Shown piece by piece: positions 1-12,105 of a DNA stretch of 49,028 bases. The first letter of the stretch is position 1, and every line of letters starts with the position of its first letter. Source of the DNA: Gammaproteobacteria bacterium (lineage in GTDB: Bacteria > Pseudomonadota > Gammaproteobacteria > Xanthomonadales > SZUA-5); the NCBI GenBank assembly GCA_030430155.1, contig JAUIFV010000012.1:1-49028 (forward strand), given 5' to 3'. Under the pieces are notes generated by a model, which was not told the origin of the DNA, made no database searches, and saw nothing but the letters and a program-made list of their open reading frames with translations. Position numbers and translations under genes: made by a program.

Positions 1-807
1 GTGATCAAAGAGATCGAGCGCCCTTCGATCCTCACCGACTACCGAGAGAAGAATGGGCAACCATCGATTGTCTCCATGCCCCCGGCGGTAAGCGCACCAA
101 ACGCCGTCTGGAGTCTGCTCTCTCCACCGGCCCTCGACGCATTCGGCCGTGTGAGTGCCGAACTTACCCCCCGCGGCCCCTACGACGGCGCGACACTCCG
201 CGTCTGGGCCGAGCAACAACCCCTCTTCAGCAAGCATCGAATCCAGACGCTCCCAGAACCGCGAGAGGGTCCATTTGTCAATACGCACTGCGCCCCCCTC
301 CCGAAGCGCAACATATCGAAGGAAGCCGCAGGGGTGGAGCCACTCATCCAATGACACCTGACGCGCGCCACCCGCTTCAAGCATCGCAGCCGTCTCCTCG
401 CTATTGACAGCGACGCGGACGACCACGTCGTCTGTAGGGAGTTCCTCCAACCGCGTGACCTCGGGTAGCACCGCGAGAGGACCGAGAAGTGCCGCACGTC
501 CGCCACCAATCTCAATCCAGCGAGGTTCTGCCGGCGTTATAAACGACTCATTCCCGATCCTCACCTCTGCACACTCGCCGAGCGCCAAGAGTTGATTGAG
601 CACCTGAGGCACACTGTCTACAGATACTTCGCCCGCGCGCAATTGGTCTCGAGCGTAATTTAGCAGCGATCTGCGCGGGCTGAGCCCCCACCGACCCATC
701 GCGTCCCGTATGAACTTCGCGATAGTTCGAGCGCTCGCGTTACCGATCGAATCCACATAGCCAAGTCCGCGCGCGAAATCGGTGCGTGTGAGTGTCGTAA
801 CGGTCAT
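1..807 (-). CDS. unrecognised third cistron of the helicase operon (partial, runs off the left edge)
   Basis: Reading the minus strand from the ATG at 807-805 gives 269 codons with no stop up to base 1, so the 5' end is complete and the 3' end lies outside the window. The start overlaps the TGA of the NERD-helicase gene (ATGA, 804-807), which implies translational coupling in one operon. The protein begins MTVTTLTRTDFARGL. Its first 100 or so residues look helical and could be a winged-helix or helix-turn-helix region (around LNYARDQLRAGEVSVDSV). A tract around WIEIGGGRAALLGPL and a Trp/Arg-rich C-terminal part follow. I see no catalytic motif and do not recognise the family. Its place behind two helicases suggests a specificity or accessory subunit, which is inference only. 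Confidence 0.75.
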   Translation of the reverse strand, partial: MTVTTLTRTDFARGLGYVDSIGNASARTIAKFIRDAMGRWGLSPRRSLLNYARDQLRAGEVSVDSVPQVLNQLLALGECAEVRIGNESFITPAEPRWIEIGGGRAALLGPLAVLPEVTRLEELPTDDVVVRVAVNSEETAAMLEAGGARQVSLDEWLHPCGFLRYVALREGGAVRIDKWTLSRFWERLDSMLAEEGLLLGPDAECRAVVGAAGGKFGTHTAECVEGRWREQTPDGVWCAYRRGHGDNRWLPILLSVVGEDRRALDLFDH

Positions 808-2540
808 TGCTCTGCTTCCGCCGCTGCCTGGGCCTTGATAATGGCTTCCCGACACTCGTCGCCGTGGACGATAGCGATCAATAACACTTTCGCGCGGGTG
901 CAGGAAACATATAGATCCTCGCGCCGGAAGAGGCGACTGAAGCCACCTAGGTCGTAGAGGATAGCCACCTCTGCCTCCAACCCCTTGAAGGATCGTGCTG
1001 TCGTCACAAGAACGCCTCCGCCACGCCGCCACTCTTCTGCAGAGGTAATAAGTGGTACACCATCTACGTCCGCCAAGTCGGCGAGGCTCCCCTTGTCCTT
1101 CGCGGCAGGGCCGATCACCGCAATCTGGCTCGGACTGACGTCATCGCGCCCAAGTAAAGACCGAAGTTCTTGGAGAACAAGACCCTTCTGTTGACGTTCA
1201 GATCCGGCTCGGAGGACTCGTGGCGGTCCGCCGATTGGCGCCCGAGGAAACGTGATGGGGGAAAGCGACAGCACTGATGCACTCGCCACTGCAATTCTGC
1301 GAGTATTTCTGCAGTTGATCGTAAGTTTGAAGCGCGCGCCAAACTCGATGTCTGGCCATTGCACTTCACCGCGAAGAGACTGGTTCGGATCTAGGAACGC
1401 GTAAAGCGGCCCTTCGGGATTGGATAGCAACGACTGCGTGAGCGCATACCACCATCCGAAACAGAAGTCCTGTGCTTCGTCCACGACGATGGCATCGAAC
1501 GAAGTCGCGCGCCCTTGGATATCGAGACTGAGGAAAGCCTGCTCCATGAGGCCTGGGACTTCGTCGTTCCAGAAGGTCTCAGTCTTTGGGCCTCGCGCCG
1601 TCGGTTCGAAAGGGATCCCCGCATCCGCGGCCAAACTGGACGCGAGCGCGTGGAAGTGCCTGACGACGAGGTGCTCTCGAAATGGAGCCGTCGCGGGGTC
1701 TTCCTCAACTTGGCGCCGGAGCCATGCGGCTAACTCTTTGTTATAGCAGACAAAGAGCGTACGCTTACGAAGACGCGCGAACGCCAACGCCCGGTTCAGG
1801 GCAAGAAACGTCTTTCCGGAGCCTGCGACGCCTTCTACCAATACGCGGTCCTCCACGTAGAGACCTTCGAACACTTGCGCCTGTGTCTCTGTCAGTTCGA
1901 GGAGTCGCTCTGAGGCCTTCGAGATGTCCGGCCCCACTGGGCGAACCAGGCGAAACTTCGGCATGAGGCAATCGTGGAGGAGCATTCGGTGGAGTTCAGC
2001 GCTAAGTGGCCTTGGGCTGCTAGTCCACGCGGCGAAAGCGGTCTCGATCGCCTGCGCCATCTCTGCGAGGTGGCGACGTGAGATGATAATCGCCTTGGCA
2101 CCGTTGTTGGGCGGCGCGCTCGTGTAGTCGAGGTGGGGGAACACGACAGCGTAGCCGTGCGCGAGAGTATCAGGTCGGATTCTGTGCCCAGAGCGCTCCT
2201 TGACGATGTCCATGAGCGCGTGCATGTTTCGCTGCGCTTGTCTGAACGGGTCCTTGAACTCGCGACAACCATTCACGCTGTTTCGAAACCATCGGTGGCC
2301 GTCGTGGCGCACGTCGCCGCCCTTTACCTCGAGCACGAGCATCCCTCGCTCGGGGTGAATGACCACGAAGTCTGCTTCTCCCTCTGCGAGCGCTTCGTCG
2401 CGCCACGGGCGTAGCCACGGGTAGGAGTGCAGGACGACGTAGTCGGGGCCCAATTGGTCGCGCAGGGCCACATAAACTGGCTCCTCTGACGCGTGCTCGA
2501 GTTGGGCCGGGTCAACGTCTGGCAACACCCTTGCCATCAT
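804..2540 (-). CDS. NERD nuclease-domain / UvrD-like helicase fusion
   Basis: 578 residues. The N-terminus carries a NERD (nuclease-related) domain with a PD-(D/E)XK-like signature: D57 in EADFVVIHP, then E71-V-K73 in LVLEVKGG. A superfamily 1 helicase follows: Walker A GVAGSGKT (237-244), Walker B with DEAQD (about 350-358), FLDPNQ (about 382-387), the NCRNTRRIA motif (about 409-417), TTARSFKGLEAEV and a C-terminal YVSCTRAK box. All key residues look intact, so a nuclease-helicase acting on DNA ends or foreign DNA is expected. The start (ATGATG) overlaps the TGA of the upstream giant helicase gene, and the 3' end overlaps the next cistron, so the three genes form one tight operon. NERD-helicases occur in many genomic islands; a role in phage defence is inferred from context. 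Confidence 0.88.
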   Translation of the reverse strand: MMARVLPDVDPAQLEHASEEPVYVALRDQLGPDYVVLHSYPWLRPWRDEALAEGEADFVVIHPERGMLVLEVKGGDVRHDGHRWFRNSVNGCREFKDPFRQAQRNMHALMDIVKERSGHRIRPDTLAHGYAVVFPHLDYTSAPPNNGAKAIIISRRHLAEMAQAIETAFAAWTSSPRPLSAELHRMLLHDCLMPKFRLVRPVGPDISKASERLLELTETQAQVFEGLYVEDRVLVEGVAGSGKTFLALNRALAFARLRKRTLFVCYNKELAAWLRRQVEEDPATAPFREHLVVRHFHALASSLAADAGIPFEPTARGPKTETFWNDEVPGLMEQAFLSLDIQGRATSFDAIVVDEAQDFCFGWWYALTQSLLSNPEGPLYAFLDPNQSLRGEVQWPDIEFGARFKLTINCRNTRRIAVASASVLSLSPITFPRAPIGGPPRVLRAGSERQQKGLVLQELRSLLGRDDVSPSQIAVIGPAAKDKGSLADLADVDGVPLITSAEEWRRGGGVLVTTARSFKGLEAEVAILYDLGGFSRLFRREDLYVSCTRAKVLLIAIVHGDECREAIIKAQAAAEAEQ

Positions 2541-5500
2541 GCATCCCCTAGCAATTGAAGTTGGCCGTCATCGAAGACACCTATGATTCGCCCGACGACG
2601 GACACATCACTTGCCAGCGCTGTCTCAAACCGGGGAGCCACCGCGGATTGGTATTGAATCTTCACCTTGGTCCCCTGTTTCAGCGCAATACCGAAAGTCC
2701 ACCGCTCTTTGGTAGCGTTGAAACCGCCTGTCGCGCTCCGGAGCAGTCGAGGTTCCGCGCCTTTCAGACTAGCGGAATAATCTCCGGATTCGGTTCGGGT
2801 GAATACAACCCAGGCTCCTTTAATGAGGGCCCCATGTCTCTTCTCGAATGTACTGTGAGTGAGTTGGGCAACGAACGCATCTGCAGGCACACCCAGGACC
2901 AAGACTCTAGCAATGGGTTGTGGGGGGCCGGACCCAGCCAAAGCGTCTAATGTGAAGACTGGAATGCCTTCCGATGATTCGGCCAAGAAAGGGGGAACTG
3001 CGGCACCGGCGCAGTCGGCAGAAAGAGCCCCCGTCGCCGACTTCACCGCTGCTGGGAGCGCTCGATCGACAAGCAACTGGTCGACGACAACGCAGTTGTC
3101 GCTCTCTTGGATTCGTAGCCGACCCTGAGTAGATCCTGCCTCCCCACGAGTCATCGGGTGACCAAGCACAACGACCCGGTCGTTGAGTTCAGGCAACATT
3201 AGCGCGCCATCGAGCGCGACCACCTCATGTCCAGCCTCTTCGAGATCCACCTGCAATGTGCGGAGCAAACGCGAGTCGTCTTCCGGCGAGATCGTGGGGT
3301 GCTCGCCGATTGCGACGTGGCGTAGGAAGGCCGCCCCCAACTTACGATCGAGATACTTGTGATCCCACTTGTTCTTGTAGCTGCGCATGCACTCATAGCA
3401 GGAGTGAGTGCACTCGCACGACTCGAGCCGTTCCATCGCGGTCTCGAAAAGGTGCTGAGGATAATCAACGGCCGATCGAACGAACCCGGCGCCTCCCGGA
3501 GTGAGGTCGTAGAGGTACACTTCGACGTGGCGCCCGGTACGCCCTTCGCTTGTCATCGCGACTCGGAACTCGGCGCCGATGTCCGACTCCTCGATGTCGA
3601 GCAACTTAGCGGCGGCGGATGCGAGCGCCTCCGCGACAGTGGTCAATACGATCTTGGCCGCGGTTGAGCCCGGCGGGAGGGTCACCGTGGCGCCGAGTTG
3701 AAACCGAAACAACGCGATGTCCGTCTCAAACTCGTTCCCGAGGACAACCACGGAAGGAGAATGGCTGCAACTCGCCCCATGCGGATGAAAGTCAGGGTTT
3801 GGTCGAGGGTGTCCCCCCTGTTGGAATTTGCCGGCTCCCCAGCCGTTCGGCTCAGCGCGACCGCAGCGAGGGCAATAGAGAAACCCAGGCTTCATCTGGT
3901 CGCGTGAACCCGTGTTGGTCAGCACGAGTCGCTGCTTAGCGGTCCACACCTCGAAGCCGGCGCCGTTCGGCGCTTGCTTCGTGGCCGCTGGTGGGCCGCT
4001 ATCTGTGAATGGTGCACTAAGCTTAGCGCGTGTGGGGCGCGTCGGAGTGGGGCTGTCTTCGAGCGGGAGTTCGGGGTCAATGTCCACAGGGTGCGCGAAC
4101 CCCGGCGGTCGGAACCAGTGGGCGCCTACCCCAAGGGATCCTGCCGTGCCGCATGCGGGACAGTCGAGCACCTTGCCCACGTAGTACTCGTCGCTTCGGC
4201 ATTCGACTCGCGCGTAACCGCAGCAGTCGCATTCGAAGTACACCTTCATTCGGCGCCAGGCCTGCCAGCATTCGCGCCGGCCAAAGGGCGTCCAGATCGC
4301 GAATGAATAGTGTCGCTCGCCGTCCACCCAAACCTCGCGGCCAGGCACGTAACTCGATAGTGCCTGGTTGAGCCCGAGTTGCGGGGAGTAACGGATCACT
4401 GCCTTGCGCTCGGTACTGGCGCTCGGCTCGAACACGTGGAAGGTCACCACGTCTGTGGGAAAGGCGTACCGCGGCAGTACGCCGCGGTCGAAGAGCCGGT
4501 CGAGCAACTTCTCTGGGTCCAGGCTACCCTCAGGCGCCTCTTCGGCCCGATCGTGGTCCACGGCGGCACCAGCGTCTCCAACGTTGGGCATATTCGGCGC
4601 ATCGAAGTCGATGCCCTCGTCCCAGTCCATCGCAAGGCCCGCGGCGGCCTCTTCGCCGCCGCCTTCAGCGATGAGTTCCTCTATTACAGCAGGAGAGAGT
4701 GTGCCGTCCGCGTCGGCGGCCTCCGCCGGGCCAGCTCCGACCTCACGCAGCGCGGCCAGCAGCCGCTCAGGGAGCGCTTCGACAAACGAGGGCTCAACCT
4801 TTAGAACGGCTGCTGGGACGACCTCACCCAGTGCCCCCCGAACGAGCGGGGCATTCTGCTCAAGCCACCGTTCAAGCCCGGCGTATGAGAATCCAGGGGC
4901 GCTTCCTCGACGGAAGTCATGGAGCATTCCGAGACTCTCAAAGACATTGGCGCTCACGTTGTCTTCGTGGTGGTCCGCGATCGCGTCCATCTGGAACATG
5001 CCCATCACTAGCGCAAAGCAATGGCGTCGCACGATCTCGAGGTTATCGAGGTTGAGGGCTGGATCAGGCACCGGGCCGCTCACCATGGCCGCTGGACTGG
5101 AATAGAACTCCTGGTCGTGGCTGTCAGCGCCGCAGTAAGTAACGACAGTCGATAGCGCAGATCCCCGTCGGCCGGCCCGGCCAGCCCGCTGCTGATAGTT
5201 CGCTCGGCCCGGCGGCACATTCCTCAGCGCGACTGCGGTGAGGCTGCCGATGTCTATACCGACCTCCATCGTTGTCGTGCACGAAAGGACATCGATCGGA
5301 CCCTCCTTTCGACCCTCAGGCCCTTCGACGTCGAGGTCTTGAAAGCGGAGTTCGTGCCACTCAGTTCTCCCGACCGCGGCGCTGTTGCTACTGTCATTCA
5401 GCGCAGCGGAGTGCTCTTCAGCGACGTAGGGATGTGGAGCGTAGTCTGGCTCAGCCACAAGTCGCTCGGCATGTCGCCGGAAATGCCCCTTGCGCGATCG

Positions 5501-8500
5501 GAACACCGGATCGGACGAGGGATCTAACGGCTGCGTCGACCCGCCACACGCGTGCTGGCCTCGCCGAATCCGGCAGCGGTCACCAGCGATCGGATTGTGA
5601 GGCTGCACCGTGGTGCAGGTTCCACAGCGACGCCATTCGACTCCATCCGTGGCGACACGCAGTTTGGCGGCACGAAGAATGAACCCGTTCGCGGTATGAC
5701 TCGTGCCAAACACCCTTGTGAGGAAGATTCCCCACTGCGTAGGGCTGGCGGCACTCCCCTTCAGGTTGGCGTTGAACCACTTTGTTCCGACGAGTTCCTT
5801 CACGAACAGCGGGAAAGTTTCCTTGGTCCTATTGATCTTGGCGCCTGTTCGCGCGTCGAGCCAATCGCTTGGCGTCGTCGGAAGGAAGAGCGAGTGGCTG
5901 AGCACCGCGTCGAAGATCCACAAATCCAGTAGTGCTAGCCGCCGCTGTTCAGGCGACAAGGCAATTGGCGCGGAAGGTGCCGGCAGTTCGTTGAGTTTGT
6001 CAACGTCTGTTTGATCGAGCATTGGCTGTATGGCGCCAAGCCCCAGCGCACTCAGGCCCGTGTGGGGATCCTTCAGCACGGGGTAAAGTGCGGACATCAG
6101 ATCCTTGTTAGTCCTGTACGTGTTCAATTCGGCTGAGCGGTCTAGGATCGCCTGGCCTGCTACCGGCGGCGAACTCTCTAGCAGTTCCTTGAAGAGTTGA
6201 AGGTCCTCCTCGAAATGTGGCGCCTGGGTTGGCCGTAGCGTCACCCCTCGGACCGCGCAGCCCACCAACAGCGCGGCATAAGAGTGTGCCAGCGAGACGG
6301 AATTTCCGTACCTGCGCTCCAACTCCGCCAAACCGTCAAGGATTAGCGGGCGGATGGCGTCTCGCATCGAGTATTGCTTGAGTTTGCCCGCGAGTCGCGA
6401 AGCGGCCTGTCTCCCATCAGAGAAGATCAGCGTCTTGCGACCCTGCAGCGGTGTACGTACCGTTGGTCTAGGGGGTTGCTCGAGTAGTTGGGACGACACG
6501 ATCTCCTGGAAGGGCTCATCACCCTTGGTTACGTGATCCATGATGTCCTCGCCCCGCGCGCTACATCGAGGACAACTGTGGAACGTTCCAGGCGGCGTTT
6601 TCTCCTGCCCAACTGGCGGAAGCCAAACTTCCCGCGCCTCTTGGTTTTGAGAGCCAACGCGGCCAGTGATTGGATCAAGGTATTTTAAGCGCGCCCCAGA
6701 ACCTGCCGGAGGCTCTTCAAGTGCTAGGAACACGGGCTGGACCACGCCGTCGACGTCATCAACTTCTCCCACGTCCTCCGCCCAGAGGTATTCCGGAGCA
6801 TTGGGGTCAAACGAAAATCCTTTGAAGTACGCCGAGCCACAGGATCGGCAAGTGTGCACCTCAAAAACTCGCGCACCACAAGCACAGGTCCTATGCGGCT
6901 GGGCGTAGAGCGCTCCCGTCGGTGGAAGGCATTCCCCCCACCGTTCCCGGCGCTCGTTAGGAATGCGTGAGCAATTGGGATCCGAGCATGCCCAGAGGCC
7001 CGGCAGCCCGCGAAAGAACGCGTGTGCGCGGGCCGCGAGCAGCGGCGCCTTGTCGTCGCTCTCCTTTGCGAGCGATGAAAGCTCAACAAGGCTGTTGGTC
7101 GCCGCGCGGGCAAGGTCCGACTCTACGTCGGGGAAGAGGCGCGCGCCCAGTTTTGAAGTTTCCTGCGCCGGTCCGATACCGGGCGGGTCTCGCTCGTCGT
7201 CTCCGTCTGATACTGCGCCGCTCGTCAGGTTCACCAGCCTCCCCGTTACGGGAAACTGGCTGAGCGCCCCGAAAAGCGCGTGGCCGACCGGGTCCGTTCC
7301 CTTAGGATTGGTGGTGCTAAGAGACTCAATGGATACTGAGGGATCTGCCAGCCGGAGCACAGGCAGTACGGCCTGGAAGCGTGAACTCAGCGGTCCCCGG
7401 TGAACGCGATTCAGATCCACGCCTGCCAGAGCAGTTGCGGTAGTGGTGTCTCCAGGGCCCGACGACTGAAAGGCTCGCTTAGAGCCAGTTAGGACCTGGA
7501 AACTATCTACGGGCTTCCCTGCGAGGTCCGACGCGAATTGCTTCGCGGCTTCAGCGTTGGAGAACGACGCACTAGTGCAGATTACTTGAAACTGCTCCAA
7601 AGGAAGTTCGAGCCGCTCACGGAGCCGGCGAATCAGCATTGCCACCTCGGTCCCTTGCGCACCGCGGTAGAGATGCGCCTCGTCCAGGACAAGGACGAGG
7701 CGTTGGTCCGGGTTGTCCTTGTAGTACGCAGCGGTGGCACGGAAGATCTCGCGCTCAATCGGGCGCAAAAGCATGTACTCAAGCATCGAGTAGTTGGTGA
7801 CGAGTAGATCCGGCACGCCCTCCTGCGCCTCGTGCCTGAGGAAAAGTTCGGGGTCCTCGTTGCGCTCGACGGTACGGACCCAGTTCCCCTCAGCGTCTTT
7901 CCACCTGCCCTTGCCAAGCCAGGCACTGATGCCGTCCTCCTTTTCGGGACTAGAAGATGGCTTTGCGGGCCACTTCCCTCGGCGCCGAAGTTCCGCGATG
8001 AGTTCGCGAGTCGCCGCGTCCTTCGCCGCGCCGTCTTCGAGCTTAGTGAAGAACTCGAGAGGCTCCTTTAATCTCGCCCAGTGCTTTGCGGTGTCTTCAC
8101 GTCGCCGGCCAGGGTAGAGCGTCCGCCCGGTGTAACGGGCGAACTTCATCGGTCGGCCGGCGCGATCAGTGAACCATCGTGACAGGTCGTTGCCCCCAAA
8201 CAGCACCCGAAGGCGACCGAGTTGGTCGTTGACTAGGGCGTTCATGGGGTATAGCAACAGCGCCCGCACGGCGCGCGTACCGAAGGACGGGCGCGTCGCC
8301 GCCTCTGCCGCGAGGCGCCCGAGGATCGGGAGGAGAAAAGTCTCCGTCTTGCCGGACCCAGTGCCCGTTGTTACGACGAGGTCGCGGGCGGGGGACGCCA
8401 ACGCGAGTTCCAACGCGTAAGCCTGATGGTCGTACGGCGGGTCGAACACTACCTTACGTCCACTCAGCCAGGTCAGCAGTTCCTTTACTTCCGGCGGTAT

Positions 8501-8689
8501 TGAGAGGGCCGCGTACTCGCGTGACGCCGCGTAGCGGGCGGTGCTCTCAATGTAGGGCGTCTGCGCGATCGCGCCCTGGCGAGCCAAAAGGTCGTCTCGC
8601 AATTCAACCAGCGCCGGATGAGACACGTGATAGGTAGACGTGATGTAGGTGCGCAGTGCTGCCGCGAACTGGTCCAACTCGACGTACAT
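2537..8689 (-). CDS. giant DEAD/DEAH-box helicase with C-terminal DUF1998 domain
   Basis: 2050 residues. RecA lobe 1 has Walker A TTGTGSGKTE (107-116), the PMNALVNDQLGRL box and a DEAH box (LDEAHLYRGAQGTE, near residue 335). RecA lobe 2 has TTTMEVGIDIGSL and motif VI QRAGRAGRRG near residue 1170. Between the lobes a long insert carries paired cysteines (ACSDPNC, CACG, CRSCGSAYF, about 575-640), likely a zinc-binding module. Near residue 1760 the cluster CECTHSCYECMRSYKN is the hallmark of DUF1998. This architecture is shared by the DruE protein of Druantia, by MrfA/YprA-like helicases and by DrmA/DrmB-related proteins of DISARM; size and fusion are closest to DruE, but I cannot assign it. The ATG has a good ribosome site (AGAAGG, plus-strand 8696-8703). 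It is the first gene of the operon. Confidence 0.9.
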   Translation of the reverse strand: MYVELDQFAAALRTYITSTYHVSHPALVELRDDLLARQGAIAQTPYIESTARYAASREYAALSIPPEVKELLTWLSGRKVVFDPPYDHQAYALELALASPARDLVVTTGTGSGKTETFLLPILGRLAAEAATRPSFGTRAVRALLLYPMNALVNDQLGRLRVLFGGNDLSRWFTDRAGRPMKFARYTGRTLYPGRRREDTAKHWARLKEPLEFFTKLEDGAAKDAATRELIAELRRRGKWPAKPSSSPEKEDGISAWLGKGRWKDAEGNWVRTVERNEDPELFLRHEAQEGVPDLLVTNYSMLEYMLLRPIEREIFRATAAYYKDNPDQRLVLVLDEAHLYRGAQGTEVAMLIRRLRERLELPLEQFQVICTSASFSNAEAAKQFASDLAGKPVDSFQVLTGSKRAFQSSGPGDTTTATALAGVDLNRVHRGPLSSRFQAVLPVLRLADPSVSIESLSTTNPKGTDPVGHALFGALSQFPVTGRLVNLTSGAVSDGDDERDPPGIGPAQETSKLGARLFPDVESDLARAATNSLVELSSLAKESDDKAPLLAARAHAFFRGLPGLWACSDPNCSRIPNERRERWGECLPPTGALYAQPHRTCACGARVFEVHTCRSCGSAYFKGFSFDPNAPEYLWAEDVGEVDDVDGVVQPVFLALEEPPAGSGARLKYLDPITGRVGSQNQEAREVWLPPVGQEKTPPGTFHSCPRCSARGEDIMDHVTKGDEPFQEIVSSQLLEQPPRPTVRTPLQGRKTLIFSDGRQAASRLAGKLKQYSMRDAIRPLILDGLAELERRYGNSVSLAHSYAALLVGCAVRGVTLRPTQAPHFEEDLQLFKELLESSPPVAGQAILDRSAELNTYRTNKDLMSALYPVLKDPHTGLSALGLGAIQPMLDQTDVDKLNELPAPSAPIALSPEQRRLALLDLWIFDAVLSHSLFLPTTPSDWLDARTGAKINRTKETFPLFVKELVGTKWFNANLKGSAASPTQWGIFLTRVFGTSHTANGFILRAAKLRVATDGVEWRRCGTCTTVQPHNPIAGDRCRIRRGQHACGGSTQPLDPSSDPVFRSRKGHFRRHAERLVAEPDYAPHPYVAEEHSAALNDSSNSAAVGRTEWHELRFQDLDVEGPEGRKEGPIDVLSCTTTMEVGIDIGSLTAVALRNVPPGRANYQQRAGRAGRRGSALSTVVTYCGADSHDQEFYSSPAAMVSGPVPDPALNLDNLEIVRRHCFALVMGMFQMDAIADHHEDNVSANVFESLGMLHDFRRGSAPGFSYAGLERWLEQNAPLVRGALGEVVPAAVLKVEPSFVEALPERLLAALREVGAGPAEAADADGTLSPAVIEELIAEGGGEEAAAGLAMDWDEGIDFDAPNMPNVGDAGAAVDHDRAEEAPEGSLDPEKLLDRLFDRGVLPRYAFPTDVVTFHVFEPSASTERKAVIRYSPQLGLNQALSSYVPGREVWVDGERHYSFAIWTPFGRRECWQAWRRMKVYFECDCCGYARVECRSDEYYVGKVLDCPACGTAGSLGVGAHWFRPPGFAHPVDIDPELPLEDSPTPTRPTRAKLSAPFTDSGPPAATKQAPNGAGFEVWTAKQRLVLTNTGSRDQMKPGFLYCPRCGRAEPNGWGAGKFQQGGHPRPNPDFHPHGASCSHSPSVVVLGNEFETDIALFRFQLGATVTLPPGSTAAKIVLTTVAEALASAAAKLLDIEESDIGAEFRVAMTSEGRTGRHVEVYLYDLTPGGAGFVRSAVDYPQHLFETAMERLESCECTHSCYECMRSYKNKWDHKYLDRKLGAAFLRHVAIGEHPTISPEDDSRLLRTLQVDLEEAGHEVVALDGALMLPELNDRVVVLGHPMTRGEAGSTQGRLRIQESDNCVVVDQLLVDRALPAAVKSATGALSADCAGAAVPPFLAESSEGIPVFTLDALAGSGPPQPIARVLVLGVPADAFVAQLTHSTFEKRHGALIKGAWVVFTRTESGDYSASLKGAEPRLLRSATGGFNATKERWTFGIALKQGTKVKIQYQSAVAPRFETALASDVSVVGRIIGVFDDGQLQLLGDA

Positions 8690-8980
8690 TAGTTAACCCT
8701 TCTGTTGTTGTTTCTTGATCACACAAACTTTTCGATGACCTCACTCACTTACGATATCTAAGACGATTCCAGCCAGATCCGCTCTTCGGCTTCCGCCTGC
8801 GGATCACGGAAGTCGTCAAGATCGCCACTTTCTTACTGTCGCTTGAAACTACGTTTCTCCCATTGAGAAGACCAAATATCACAATTGTGAGAACTGGCTC
8901 TCATCGAGGCTGGTTTTCGCGGAATGCCCCACGCTTCCGCGAGCGAACAGGTGCGTGTTGTCCGGCGAGCGCAACTTGAG
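8690..8980. promoter_or_regulatory. non-coding upstream region of the helicase operon with a 12-bp palindrome
   Basis: 291 bases without a convincing gene separate the broken gene at 8981-10293 from the helicase start. The region is more AT-rich than its surroundings. It contains the perfect palindrome TCACAATTGTGA at 8879-8890 and, just before it, a smaller inverted repeat (TTCTC/GAGAA, about 8855-8869). Either could be an operator for the operon. I cannot point to clear -35/-10 boxes. Confidence 0.35.
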
Positions 8981-10293
8981 TCACGTTCGCCGTGGCGACC
9001 AAGTTCTTGAGTAAAAGACGCCAACGCGCTGGGGTTCGGGGGCGTCCAGTAATGGGTCAGATACATTGATCAACGGATCCACCCAATCCGCTTTGGCTCT
9101 CGCCCAGGCAATCCAGTCCATTGCGTCTGCATCGAGTTCGCCCCGAACGACAGCGTTCGCTTCAAACGCGCCGATGTAGCTGCGCAGCGCATTTGCTCGG
9201 CGGTGCCGCGAAGCATCGCGGACAAGTGATTGGAATCGATTCATCTCGTCGGCGTGACGGGCGATTGCGGTCTCGTATCGGGCTTCCGCCTCCCGCTGCT
9301 GTCTCTGGCGGTCGCGCTCCGCCTCTTCGCGCGAACGGGTCTCCTCGGCCATCCGCACGACTTCCGCGGCGATATTGTTGAGCCGCTTCTCCAGCCCGGT
9401 TTTCGCGGTGTCATTCCAATTGCGCAGCACTGGGTACCGGCCTACGGATATCGTCAATTGACCAGTAGGCGTCCAGTCGTACTGTGGAATGTCAGGTGGT
9501 TCTGCGCGCCAGTCGTACGGCGGCGCATCGTAGTAGCGCTTGCGAGCACGTTCTTCCGATCTTGTGAGCACGTGCGGACTGCGCACCGTTTGCTCGACCA
9601 GCATGAATGGCAACCTGGCGCCTCGACCTGCTAGGTATGTCGTGCCCTTCTGCTTGTCGATAGAGACGCTGAATTCCATGGCACCAAGGAGATTGATCAG
9701 CGAGTTGGCGATGCCCAGCGCACGGTCGACAGCACCGGAGGTGACGCGAATGTCGAGCACCTCGTTGGGTGCTGACCGAATTCCGCTCGGGTCCGTCCAG
9801 CCCGACCTTGCGTGCAAACGCTTCCCGGCTGCGCGGACCAACGGTTGCGTCACTTCCTCGTCGTTCAAGTTCGCGCCGTCGCTGAGCTTTTTCTTGGCGT
9901 CGGAAACCACAGCATCTAGTTGGGCGCGAGTCTCCAACTCTGAATCGGTCAGAGGTATCGGGCCATACGCAATCTGGGATTCAGTACTCAGCTCAGGCAG
10001 TTGCGCTTTTCGTGGCTTCTGTCCGGCGTGGACTTTCGCCCAATAACCCTGCGCGGGACCGGGATCTTCATCCGGCCGCACTTCTTGATCAGATCTACAT
10101 CCGACATGCCATATCGCTTGGCAACGACAGTGATGGGCTCGGCCCACACCTCCTCGTACAGCGTTTCCCGATCAGTTGGTGGATTGACACTCACGTTGAA
10201 TTCTCCCGGTAGCAGGCGGAACATCAGTGATTCCGTTCGCGGGTCCGCATTAGACGACAGCCGGTAGGTATTCGTATGAAGCCAGGACGTCAT
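8981..10293 (-). pseudogene. frameshifted gene: N-terminal HTH-like 'VW...GYWAK' protein with coiled coil
   Basis: Two minus-strand frames make one protein. The first frame (from the ATG at 10293) reads TDRETLYEEVWAEPITVVAK and continues through YGMSDVDLIKKCGRMKIPVP. The continuation expected for this family, GYWAKVHAGQKPRKAQLPEL, is found only in the second frame, which then runs to the TGA at 8981. The junction lies at about 10048-10053, where a one-base loss (or two-base gain) in CCGCGCAGGGTTATTGG would explain the shift. The N-terminal part resembles a helix-turn-helix; the C-terminal half has a long charged coiled coil (MAEETRSREEAERDRQRQQR). I know this N-terminal pattern from uncharacterised proteins of mobile regions, but no function. 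It may be a real pseudogene, a sequencing error or programmed frameshifting. Confidence 0.75.
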
Positions 10294-10731
10294 GAAGTCC
10301 CAGCGTTGGGCGATCTGCTCGAACTGCAGTCGCTGGTGGTCGAATGCCTGTACTCGTGCGGCATGGAGATCAACAGTTCAGCGAAGTCTGAAGCATGGGC
10401 CATTCGAGCGTTGTGGTCGCGGATGGCTCCTGAGTGGACTGATGCCGAAGGCCAACGGGTCGCCGTTTGGGTCGAGGAACTCGAGTATGCAGAGCAGCAG
10501 GCCACGGTCCGATCCCAGTTCGCAGCCCGATCCAAGTGCTGTTTCCGCATCTGGCGCCTGCTGCAGCGGCGCCTGGCTAGGCGCCTGGACTATGACTGGC
10601 CGGAGGGTGGATTGATGCTGGAGACGCCGCTGAGAGGCCGGCGTGCGTCGGACAATGCGGCGACGGTGGACTCGCCGCCCATCCATGTTGTGTCGATGCG
10701 GGTCGTGCTGCCGCCGAACAGTGAGTCCTAG
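10276..10731 (+). CDS. hypothetical protein, doubtful small ORF
   Basis: 151 codons starting at an ATG that overlaps the 5' end of the divergent broken gene by 18 bases. The translation has a plausible amino-acid balance: a mixed N-terminal part (LGDLLELQSLVVECLYS), a Trp-containing middle (RALWSRMAPEWTDAEG) and an Arg-rich helix (FRIWRLLQRRLARRLDYDW). There are no recognisable motifs, signal peptide or membrane segments. A competing minus-strand frame exists over the same bases but reads as low-complexity Arg/Ser/Pro. A weak ribosome site (GGTAGG) precedes the ATG. It ends just before the Fic regulatory region. I do not recognise it, and it may not be a gene. Confidence 0.35.
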   Translation: MKPGRHEVPALGDLLELQSLVVECLYSCGMEINSSAKSEAWAIRALWSRMAPEWTDAEGQRVAVWVEELEYAEQQATVRSQFAARSKCCFRIWRLLQRRLARRLDYDWPEGGLMLETPLRGRRASDNAATVDSPPIHVVSMRVVLPPNSES

Positions 10732-10749
10732 GCAGGCTGTTTGCATATA

Positions 10750-10851
10750 TGTCGACGAAATCGCAATTCATCGACACATTTTGGCCAAATGTCGATACCA
10801 TCGACATGTCGATCGAACGTGTCGATCAAAGCGGAATCCATCGACATGTCG
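10750..10851 (+). promoter_or_regulatory. array of TGTCGA/TCGACA half-sites overlapping the fic start (putative autoregulatory operator)
   Basis: In about 100 bases the hexamer TGTCGA or its complement TCGACA occurs seven times: 10750, 10771, 10790, 10801, 10807, 10820 and 10841, with a further partial copy (TGTCG) at 10847. TCGACATGTCGA at 10801-10812 is a perfect palindrome. 10771-10795 is a longer imperfect palindrome centred on GGCC. The last copy, TCGACATGTCG (10841-10851), contains the ATG of the fic gene. Because the Fic protein ends in a winged-helix domain, self-repression through these sites is a reasonable inference. Confidence 0.65.
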
Positions 10852-11958
10852 TTTGATCCCAAGCGGCCACACAACGATCTTCCGGAGTTACCGCCGAAAG
10901 CGGACATTGAGACCAGACCGCTGTTGAAGACGTGCATAGAGGCTCGCGCCGCGCTGGCAGAACTCAAGAGTCTGGGCGCGGGGATTCCGAATCAAGCCGT
11001 TCTGATCAACAGCATCCCGTTGCTGGAGGCACGCGCAAGCAGCGAAATCGAGAACATTGTCACTACCAACGACGCGCTGTTTAGATACTCGCACGACGAC
11101 AACGACGCGGACCCCGCCACCAAGGAAGCATTGTTATATCGCTCGGCGCTGCGAGAGGGCTTCGACTCCCTACGAGCGCATCCCCTCAACACCAATACTG
11201 CCGTTCGCGTGTGCAGCCGATTGAAGAATCGCGACATGCAGATTCGCCGCGTGCCAGGCACGGAGCTGAGCAATTCGACTACCGGTGAGGTGATCTACAC
11301 ACCACCGGAGGGTGAAGCGGTGATACGCGGCAAGCTCGCCAACTGGGAGCGCTTCGTACACGACGAAATTGAAATCGATCCGCTGATCAGAATGGCCGTG
11401 GCTCACTACCAATTCGAAGCGATCCACCCCTTCTTGGACGGCAACGGTCGCACCGGCCGCGTGCTGAATCTGTTGATACTGGTCGAGCACGGGCTGATTG
11501 AGCTACCGGTGCTATATCTGTCCCGCTACATACTCCGCCATCGGGCCGAGTATTACCGTCTGCTCCTGGCAGTCACTGCCGAGAATGCGTGGGAGGCGTG
11601 GATCGCCTTCATGCTCACTGGGGTCGCTGAAACCGCGCGCTGGACTGCGGACAAGATTCTCGCAATCCAGCGACTGCAGCAGCACGCCACCGAGTTTGTC
11701 CGGTCCCACGCACCGAAGGTCTACAGCCGCGATCTGGTCGATGCGCTATTCGTCCAACCCTATTGTCGGATTGAGAACCTGGTTGAAGCGGGTGTCGCCA
11801 AACGCCAAACGGCGTCGGCCTACCTCAAGCAGCTCGCGAGTCTCGGCATGTTGGAGGAAATCAAATCAGGCCGTGAAAAGCTGTTCCTGCACACCAACTT
11901 CGTGCGCCTGCTCGTCAGCGAGGAACATCCGCATCTTGCCTATCAACGTATTCGTTGA
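10846..11958 (+). CDS. fic: class II Fic family protein with C-terminal winged helix
   Basis: 370 residues from the ATG at 10846. An in-frame TTG at 10741 and ATG at 10789 exist but lie inside the repeat array, so the 10846 start is preferred. The Fic motif HPFLDGNGRTGR (H194 to R205) is intact, so AMP transfer to a hydroxyl side chain of a target protein is expected. The inhibitory helix motif [S/T]xxxE[G/N] is present in the N-terminal part (S65-SEI-E69-N70), which makes this a class II, self-inhibited Fic protein. The C-terminal 80 residues (VEAGVAKRQTASAYLKQL, then GREKLFL) look like a winged-helix DNA-binding domain. It is the last gene before the presumed attachment site of the island and needs no separate antitoxin. 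Confidence 0.9.
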   Translation: MSFDPKRPHNDLPELPPKADIETRPLLKTCIEARAALAELKSLGAGIPNQAVLINSIPLLEARASSEIENIVTTNDALFRYSHDDNDADPATKEALLYRSALREGFDSLRAHPLNTNTAVRVCSRLKNRDMQIRRVPGTELSNSTTGEVIYTPPEGEAVIRGKLANWERFVHDEIEIDPLIRMAVAHYQFEAIHPFLDGNGRTGRVLNLLILVEHGLIELPVLYLSRYILRHRAEYYRLLLAVTAENAWEAWIAFMLTGVAETARWTADKILAIQRLQQHATEFVRSHAPKVYSRDLVDALFVQPYCRIENLVEAGVAKRQTASAYLKQLASLGMLEEIKSGREKLFLHTNFVRLLVSEEHPHLAYQRIR

Positions 11959-12074
11959 CGCGGCCATGGATGAGCCGGATCCGAGCCACTAGGAAAGGAA
12001 ATATCGGGGTAAATTCCGGGGTAATCAGAGATCGCTTTCCAAAATATATTTGATAATCAGTTGGTTGAGGAACT

Positions 12075-12099
12075 GGTTCGAATCCTAGTCCCCCAGCCA
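12075..12099 (+). other. tRNA 3'-end fragment, presumed attachment site (att) of the island
   Basis: The bases read GGTTCGAATCCTAG followed by TCCCCCAGCCA. This is a T-loop (TTCGAAT) with the 3' side of its stem, a 7-base acceptor strand TCCCCCA, discriminator G and CCA. The acceptor/discriminator pattern matches tRNA-Gln (5' strand expected TGGGGGA, as in E. coli TGGGGTA...TACCCCAGCCA). The 5' side is wrong: the T-stem is mismatched and no D- or anticodon arm precedes it. It is therefore a fragment, as left when an element integrates into the 3' end of a tRNA gene. The intact tRNA should lie at the other end of the island, to the left of the window. Confidence 0.72.
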
Positions 12100-12105
12100 A
12101 TTCAT

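Follow-up and report, generated by a model that had tools for sequence, protein, structure and literature searches.

Druantia type I is reportedly composed of the five genes DruABCDE (Doron et al. 2018). We describe here a related locus at the left edge of a stretch of 49,028 nucleotides (contig JAUIFV010000012.1, or C202, of the gammaproteobacterial assembly GCA_030430155.1; hereafter the window), in which a gene for a DruE-type helicase is followed by a gene for a nuclease-helicase and by a truncated third gene. A survey of YprA-family helicases predicts that type I DruE has an inactive Vsr nuclease at its C-terminus, and it also describes TALON of the Chloroflexota, in which a YprA-family helicase is paired with a NERD nuclease (PMC12458937). 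In type III, DruE is a helicase-nuclease: it loads at 3′ single-stranded DNA, and its PLD domain does the cutting (PMC13192584). For the MORC-type ATPases of restriction operons, DNA looping or the rearrangement of complexes has been suggested as a role (PMC2292703). No mechanism for type I Druantia is described in the literature examined; the cutting activity could be located directly in a relative of type I whose nuclease-helicase is a separate protein and apparently intact. Among open-access papers we found no description of a NERD helicase, a MORC-like ATPase, an SNF2 helicase or the protein of about 1000 amino acids (aa) reported below together with Druantia type I. Based on the present data, we think it fairly probable that the locus represents one end, cut off by the contig edge, of an expanded antiviral system resembling Druantia type I; the system would reside on a tRNA-Gln island, and its nuclease would act in trans.

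The three-gene operon at the contig end

The operon comprises three minus-strand open reading frames, at 2537-8689 (2050 aa), at 804-2540 (578 aa) and from 807 past base 1, with an ATGA overlap at both the junction of druE with the NERD-helicase gene and that of the NERD-helicase gene with the third gene. The contig ends at base 1 of the window, and the source assembly is a draft (287 contigs, 96.6% complete, 5.06 Mb). As a consequence of this edge, only the 5′ part of the third gene is present (1-807, opening with MTVTTLTRTDFA at 807), the operon appears stripped through the cut alone, and nothing follows from not seeing more genes here. The initial annotation, which was made from the window alone, was correct in describing three overlapping minus-strand genes, a 2050-residue helicase with DUF1998 cysteines and a nuclease-helicase with intact NERD and UvrD-type motifs. 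One correction applies: since the contig stops at base 1, the genes that it listed as absent were just out of view.

The 2050-aa protein (2537-8689, minus strand) is a YprA-type superfamily 2 (SF2) helicase with the motifs GTGSGKT (109), DEAH (336) and GRAGR (1170) and many C..C pairs. Pfam finds DEAD and Helicase_C domains as well as an MZB (formerly DUF1998) zinc domain at residues 1686-1768. Against PADLOC it reaches 1474 bits to DruE1 over residues 6-1886, compared to 559 bits for the next Druantia family, 540 bits for DruE3 and 53 bits for DrmA. A maximum-likelihood tree built from 19 DruE proteins places the seven DruE of the present set in a single clade (100/100), to which the Nitrosococcus-type DruE is joined as sister (100/100); both are nested with the type I DruE of P. 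putida and of haloarchaea. It should be noted that the deeper long branches of this tree are unreliable, which does not affect the clade of interest. The least conserved part of the protein is residues 1790-2050, where 17% and then 7% of the residues are invariant among the seven sequences. No D..ExK constellation is present there in any of the seven, and the C-terminus holds no conserved catalytic set. We therefore propose, on the basis of these alignments, that the C-terminal nuclease-like domain of DruE is dead.

The second protein (804-2540, minus strand, 578 aa) consists of a NERD nuclease fused to a superfamily 1 (SF1) helicase of the UvrD/Schlafen type. The NERD domain is matched by Pfam at 43 bits (cutoff 22) and its GEADF...LEVKGG motif is intact; PADLOC matches the protein to RTasNERD-Hel with 174 bits. 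Both the D..ExK residues of the nuclease and the SF1 helicase motifs are invariant across six sequences, and a scan of species-representative genomes returned three close relatives. On a plasmid of Deinococcus aquaticus (L046 5950-13828) a different DruE is followed by a NERD-UvrD protein, with a type III-A CRISPR gene adjoining; this is perhaps an independent DruE-NERD pairing.

The third protein had been called unrecognised. This was right insofar as Pfam returns no match, but the gene is cut by the contig end, and its complete homologue in Aromatoleum (L002:11734-12744, 71% identical) weakly matches DruD1. The homologues are 316-342 aa long, and their DruD1 matches have E-values of 3e-6 (Aromatoleum) and 1.5e-4, with none for Roseomonas. 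Profile alignment with hhalign gives P 8.5e-4 to the DruD of Nitrosococcus and no match to that of P. putida. A profile search of the PDB yielded nothing meaningful and scans of viral contigs no relatives. Among the 369 genomes of its class, a count that includes the present genome, the protein was found in the present genome only.

The probable other half of the island

A second contig of the same genome, C29, encodes a DruA1-family protein of 683 aa (C29:303-2354; E 4e-260) and a MORC-like GHKL ATPase (C29:2358-3914), with a helix-turn-helix protein upstream. Onward from these genes lie a small terminase subunit, a primase-helicase, AlpA, an integrase (9144-10511) and tRNA-Gln(CTG), and then rpsI and rplM, which were identified by reading of the frames. 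The last 29 bp of the tRNA-Gln(CTG) 3′ end (C29:10603-10631) recur as a perfect copy on the minus strand of the window at 12075-12103, the outer attachment (att) site. The C29 copy adjoins the integrase, and the window copy is oriented as expected for the far end of an island; the window itself contains no tRNA gene. Because this repeat occurs at exactly these two places in the 5.06-Mb genome, even when three mismatches are allowed, there is good evidence that window positions 1-12103 and C29 positions 1-10631 are two halves of one integrase-bearing island. An empty tRNA-Gln site was not found: only about 190 bases follow the tRNA on the contig of the same-genus relative, and other relatives match the repeat alone. 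The island end on C29 (L009 4696-10511) resembles a phage satellite in its integrase, AlpA, primase with a DnaB-like helicase and small terminase subunit.

Complete relatives carry seven components

The full set was recovered from five relatives: Aromatoleum, Roseomonas, a metagenome-assembled genome of the Acidobacteriota, and plasmids of Leisingera and of Paracoccus versutus. Its seven components are a GHKL ATPase with DruA, the series DruE, NERD helicase and DruD-like protein, and an SNF2 helicase with a protein of about 1000 aa. In the loci of Aromatoleum, Roseomonas and the Acidobacteriota, the SNF2 and ~1000-aa genes are convergent to DruE, NERD helicase and third gene, and are followed by DruA, with GHKL beyond DruA. 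The two plasmids have another order, GHKL and DruA preceding DruE, and yet the pairs and triples stay together. The triple by itself is kept at six other loci, a point that the initial annotation had proposed to check; at one of these loci, an IMG/VR contig, DruE, NERD helicase and third gene run up to the contig end. The gap between our two contigs coincides with the place of the SNF2 and ~1000-aa genes in three relatives. A three-gene system without DruA, as initially envisaged, is no longer tenable, since DruA and the MORC-like ATPase lie on the same island and the relatives add the SNF2 and ~1000-aa proteins.

The set is observed in its gene content, its synteny, its correlated divergence, its island and the intact NERD and helicase motifs. 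The DruA homologues score 620-683 bits to the DruA1 model, and the Roseomonas orthologue matches both PF14236 and DruA1. The GHKL protein is closest to MzaB and MORC2/3, and the SNF2 protein to DpdE, DrmD and RapA-type helicases; scans of viral contigs returned no relative of the latter. For the ~1000-aa protein, a profile search of the PDB gave nothing meaningful, and the Foldseek matches were not used (query template-modelling score about 0.1). Pairwise identities of the seven components correlate across loci (r 0.88-1.00), DruA and GHKL tracking one another almost perfectly and the remaining genes slightly less so. Together with the gene order, this divergence pattern suggests two sub-modules that may sometimes reassort. 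The seven-gene set is rare, the ~1000-aa family being present in 2/369 and 4/385 genomes of the classes of two relatives (the genomes around which the searches were centred included), and its distribution is sparse and often plasmid- or island-borne. In Aromatoleum alone, a 353-aa gene of no known family separates DruA from the ~1000-aa gene (L002 18804-19865); it was dropped as a core gene because the present genome lacks it, as do the corresponding positions of the other loci. At the Leisingera locus (L023), two related GHKL ATPases precede DruA (4466-6391 and 6937-8703).

Relation to Druantia type I and to other systems

With Druantia type I the set shares the DruE1-family helicase, which is nested in the type I tree, and the DruA1-family protein (DUF4338/PF14236) on the same island; the third gene has a weak similarity to DruD1 and may be a DruD. 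It differs in that DruA is long (about 680 aa, compared to about 410 aa in P. putida), in that a NERD nuclease-helicase, a MORC-like ATPase, an SNF2 helicase and the ~1000-aa protein are added, and in that DruB and DruC are missing. No DruB1 match was found in the proteins of the complete relatives, our own locus being gapped, and the ~1000-aa profile is unrelated to the DruB of P. putida; likewise, the complete relatives contain neither a DruC1 match nor a profile similar to DruC. Because DruB and DruC are absent, the set is best classified, as far as sequence comparison allows, as a variant related to Druantia type I and not as canonical type I. The initial annotation had regarded the genes as a separate helicase-helicase-nuclease triple, which this classification replaces, and it had named a complete known type in the left flank as the finding that would speak against it. 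The missing flank does bring the set near a known type, but without DruB and DruC it is not the complete canonical one. The PADLOC library of DruA1 already holds a 675-aa model that fits the long DruA, and some components of the set are therefore already classed with type I. On haloarchaeal plasmids (L029 685-19400, L030 646-19400), a long DruA and DruE occur with FtsK-like, SspF-like and SspG-like proteins; these loci are another expanded type I-like set.

The nearest relative by DruE has the architecture DruA(short)/~955-aa protein/DruD/DruE. It is found on pNWAT01 of Nitrosococcus watsonii, in IMG/VR L039 and in the loci of G526, G877 and G917, with a partial match in G1088, its DruE forms the sister clade, and it shares the ~1000-aa family with the present set. 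It differs by its short DruA and clear DruD, and no GHKL ATPase or SNF2 helicase was recognised adjoining it. At three of these loci, the gene directly after DruE encodes a protein whose N-terminus, as read by eye, is D..ExK-like and which has a P-loop helicase core, an arrangement in line with the nuclease in trans proposed below.

We also considered DISARM, Druantia III, TALON and ARMADA as classifications and rejected them. The complete relatives contain no recognised DrmA with separate DrmB, methyltransferase or PLD nuclease DrmC, and no DruH match was found among their scanned proteins; as to type III, DruE3 scores 540 compared to 1474 bits for DruE1. PADLOC and the relatives thus agree with the initial description of a defence-type module of a DruE helicase and a NERD nuclease-helicase that lacks the DISARM methyltransferase and PLD nuclease. 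TALON has the pairing of a YprA-family helicase with a NERD nuclease in common with the set, but its partner gene was not recognised here. The MZA and prokaryotic MORC/paraMORC operons resemble the set in placing a GHKL ATPase (MzaB, MORC2/3-like) beside SF2 helicases and a nuclease (PMC2292703), whereas the other genes here are Druantia-type and no Z1 or AIPR gene was recognised among them.

IMG/VR L038 (791-15924) and a plasmid of Azospirillum ramasamyi (L025 24-13626) carry DISARM-like sets in which DrmA and DrmB are accompanied by NERD and UvrD helicases and by a ~1000-aa protein. Both share the NERD helicase and the ~1000-aa protein with the present set, and L038 has the SNF2 helicase as well; its UvrD protein starts with a segment that resembles our third protein with a modest score. 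Their core differs, consisting of DrmA and DrmB instead of DruE, and no DruA was seen. The NERD helicase/SNF2/~1000-aa machinery hence accompanies two different YprA-type cores. The presence of these families with both DruE and DrmAB suggests an exchange of accessory machinery between Druantia-like and DISARM-like systems, which would account for part of the diversity among YprA-helicase defences. A partial frame of L038 (1-822) reads like a DNA cytosine methyltransferase, and in the Azospirillum set a gene of the DarT ADP-ribosyltransferase family (L025 13740-14342) comes after the NERD helicase.

Proposed division of labour and alternative explanations

We infer the antiviral activity, the trigger and the division of labour of the set. 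As judged from the biochemistry of type III DruE, the helicase would load on DNA with exposed single strands from replicating phage and open replication intermediates. Cutting would fall to the NERD helicase, which is encoded in the same operon and would act in trans; we make this assignment because the C-terminus of DruE appears dead while the NERD catalytic residues are invariant. The GHKL-DruA pair might act as an ATP-driven clamp or switch, for which MORC-type ATPases are the only basis, and the SNF2 helicase and the helical/beta-rich ~1000-aa protein could, by analogy, be a translocase and a recognition or regulatory part. We would tentatively go one step further and suggest a separate Druantia subtype, a proposal that we find plausible if not quite probable: nuclease function would have passed from DruE, with its dead C-terminus, to a NERD helicase translated along with it and would be gated by the MORC-like ATPase, and the subtype would share a swappable module (NERD helicase, SNF2, ~1000-aa protein and D-like domain) with DISARM-like DrmAB systems.

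Several observations weigh against an expanded system with a nuclease in trans. The five-gene type I with DruB and DruC has no listed nuclease gene adjoining it, so that the trans arrangement is not a general one. Correlated identities would follow from any joint inheritance, and so agree with one system without proving it. The AlphaFold2 models of the ~1000-aa and DruD-like proteins are poor (predicted local distance difference test scores of 47 and 43). Furthermore, the SNF2 and ~1000-aa genes were not found anywhere in this 5.06-Mb assembly, and the gene set of this genome may be incomplete beyond mere non-assembly. This last finding, like the lack of a matching frame in the 302 bases between DruA and the end of C29, would be expected of a decaying remnant that has really lost the two genes and keeps the others merely as island cargo. 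The 302 bases also match no spacer of the relatives and no Rfam family. We consider such decay quite improbable: both contigs stop near the expected place of the missing genes in what is an incomplete draft, and the genes that are present are open-framed and 58-86% identical to their Aromatoleum and Roseomonas counterparts.

The matches to DruA1 and DruE1 and the weak ones to DruD1 could also be read as an ordinary Druantia type I whose working parts are DruE, DruA and a divergent DruD, the NERD helicase, GHKL and SNF2 genes being separable neighbouring defence cargo; indeed, the five-gene DruABCDE set of P. putida pKF715A manages without the extra genes. This is unlikely in view of the absence of DruB and DruC from the complete relatives by both PADLOC and profile comparison, of the ATGA overlaps that join the NERD-helicase gene to druE and to the third gene, and of the recurrence of the same extra genes in distant hosts with congruent divergence. 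A module for DNA repair or island maintenance, combining a YprA/MrfA-like helicase with a nuclease but having no antiviral role, seems very improbable. YprA helicases do include repair enzymes (PMC12458937), and the integrase, AlpA, primase-helicase and small terminase of the surrounding element are satellite-like, but DruE scores to the defence clade, DruA is a Druantia hallmark, and the distribution is that of sparse, often mobile genes.

Other genes of the island in the window

Upstream of druE, a gene for a 388-aa protein without Pfam or PADLOC match (8981-10147, minus strand) lies inside the island and outside the conserved set. Between the Druantia-like genes and the tRNA-Gln att repeat, the plus strand encodes a SoFic-type Fic AMPylase (10741-11958; PADLOC SoFic 400 bits; Pfam Fic_N, Fic and SoFic-like_C), which is cargo of the same island and possibly a separate defence gene.
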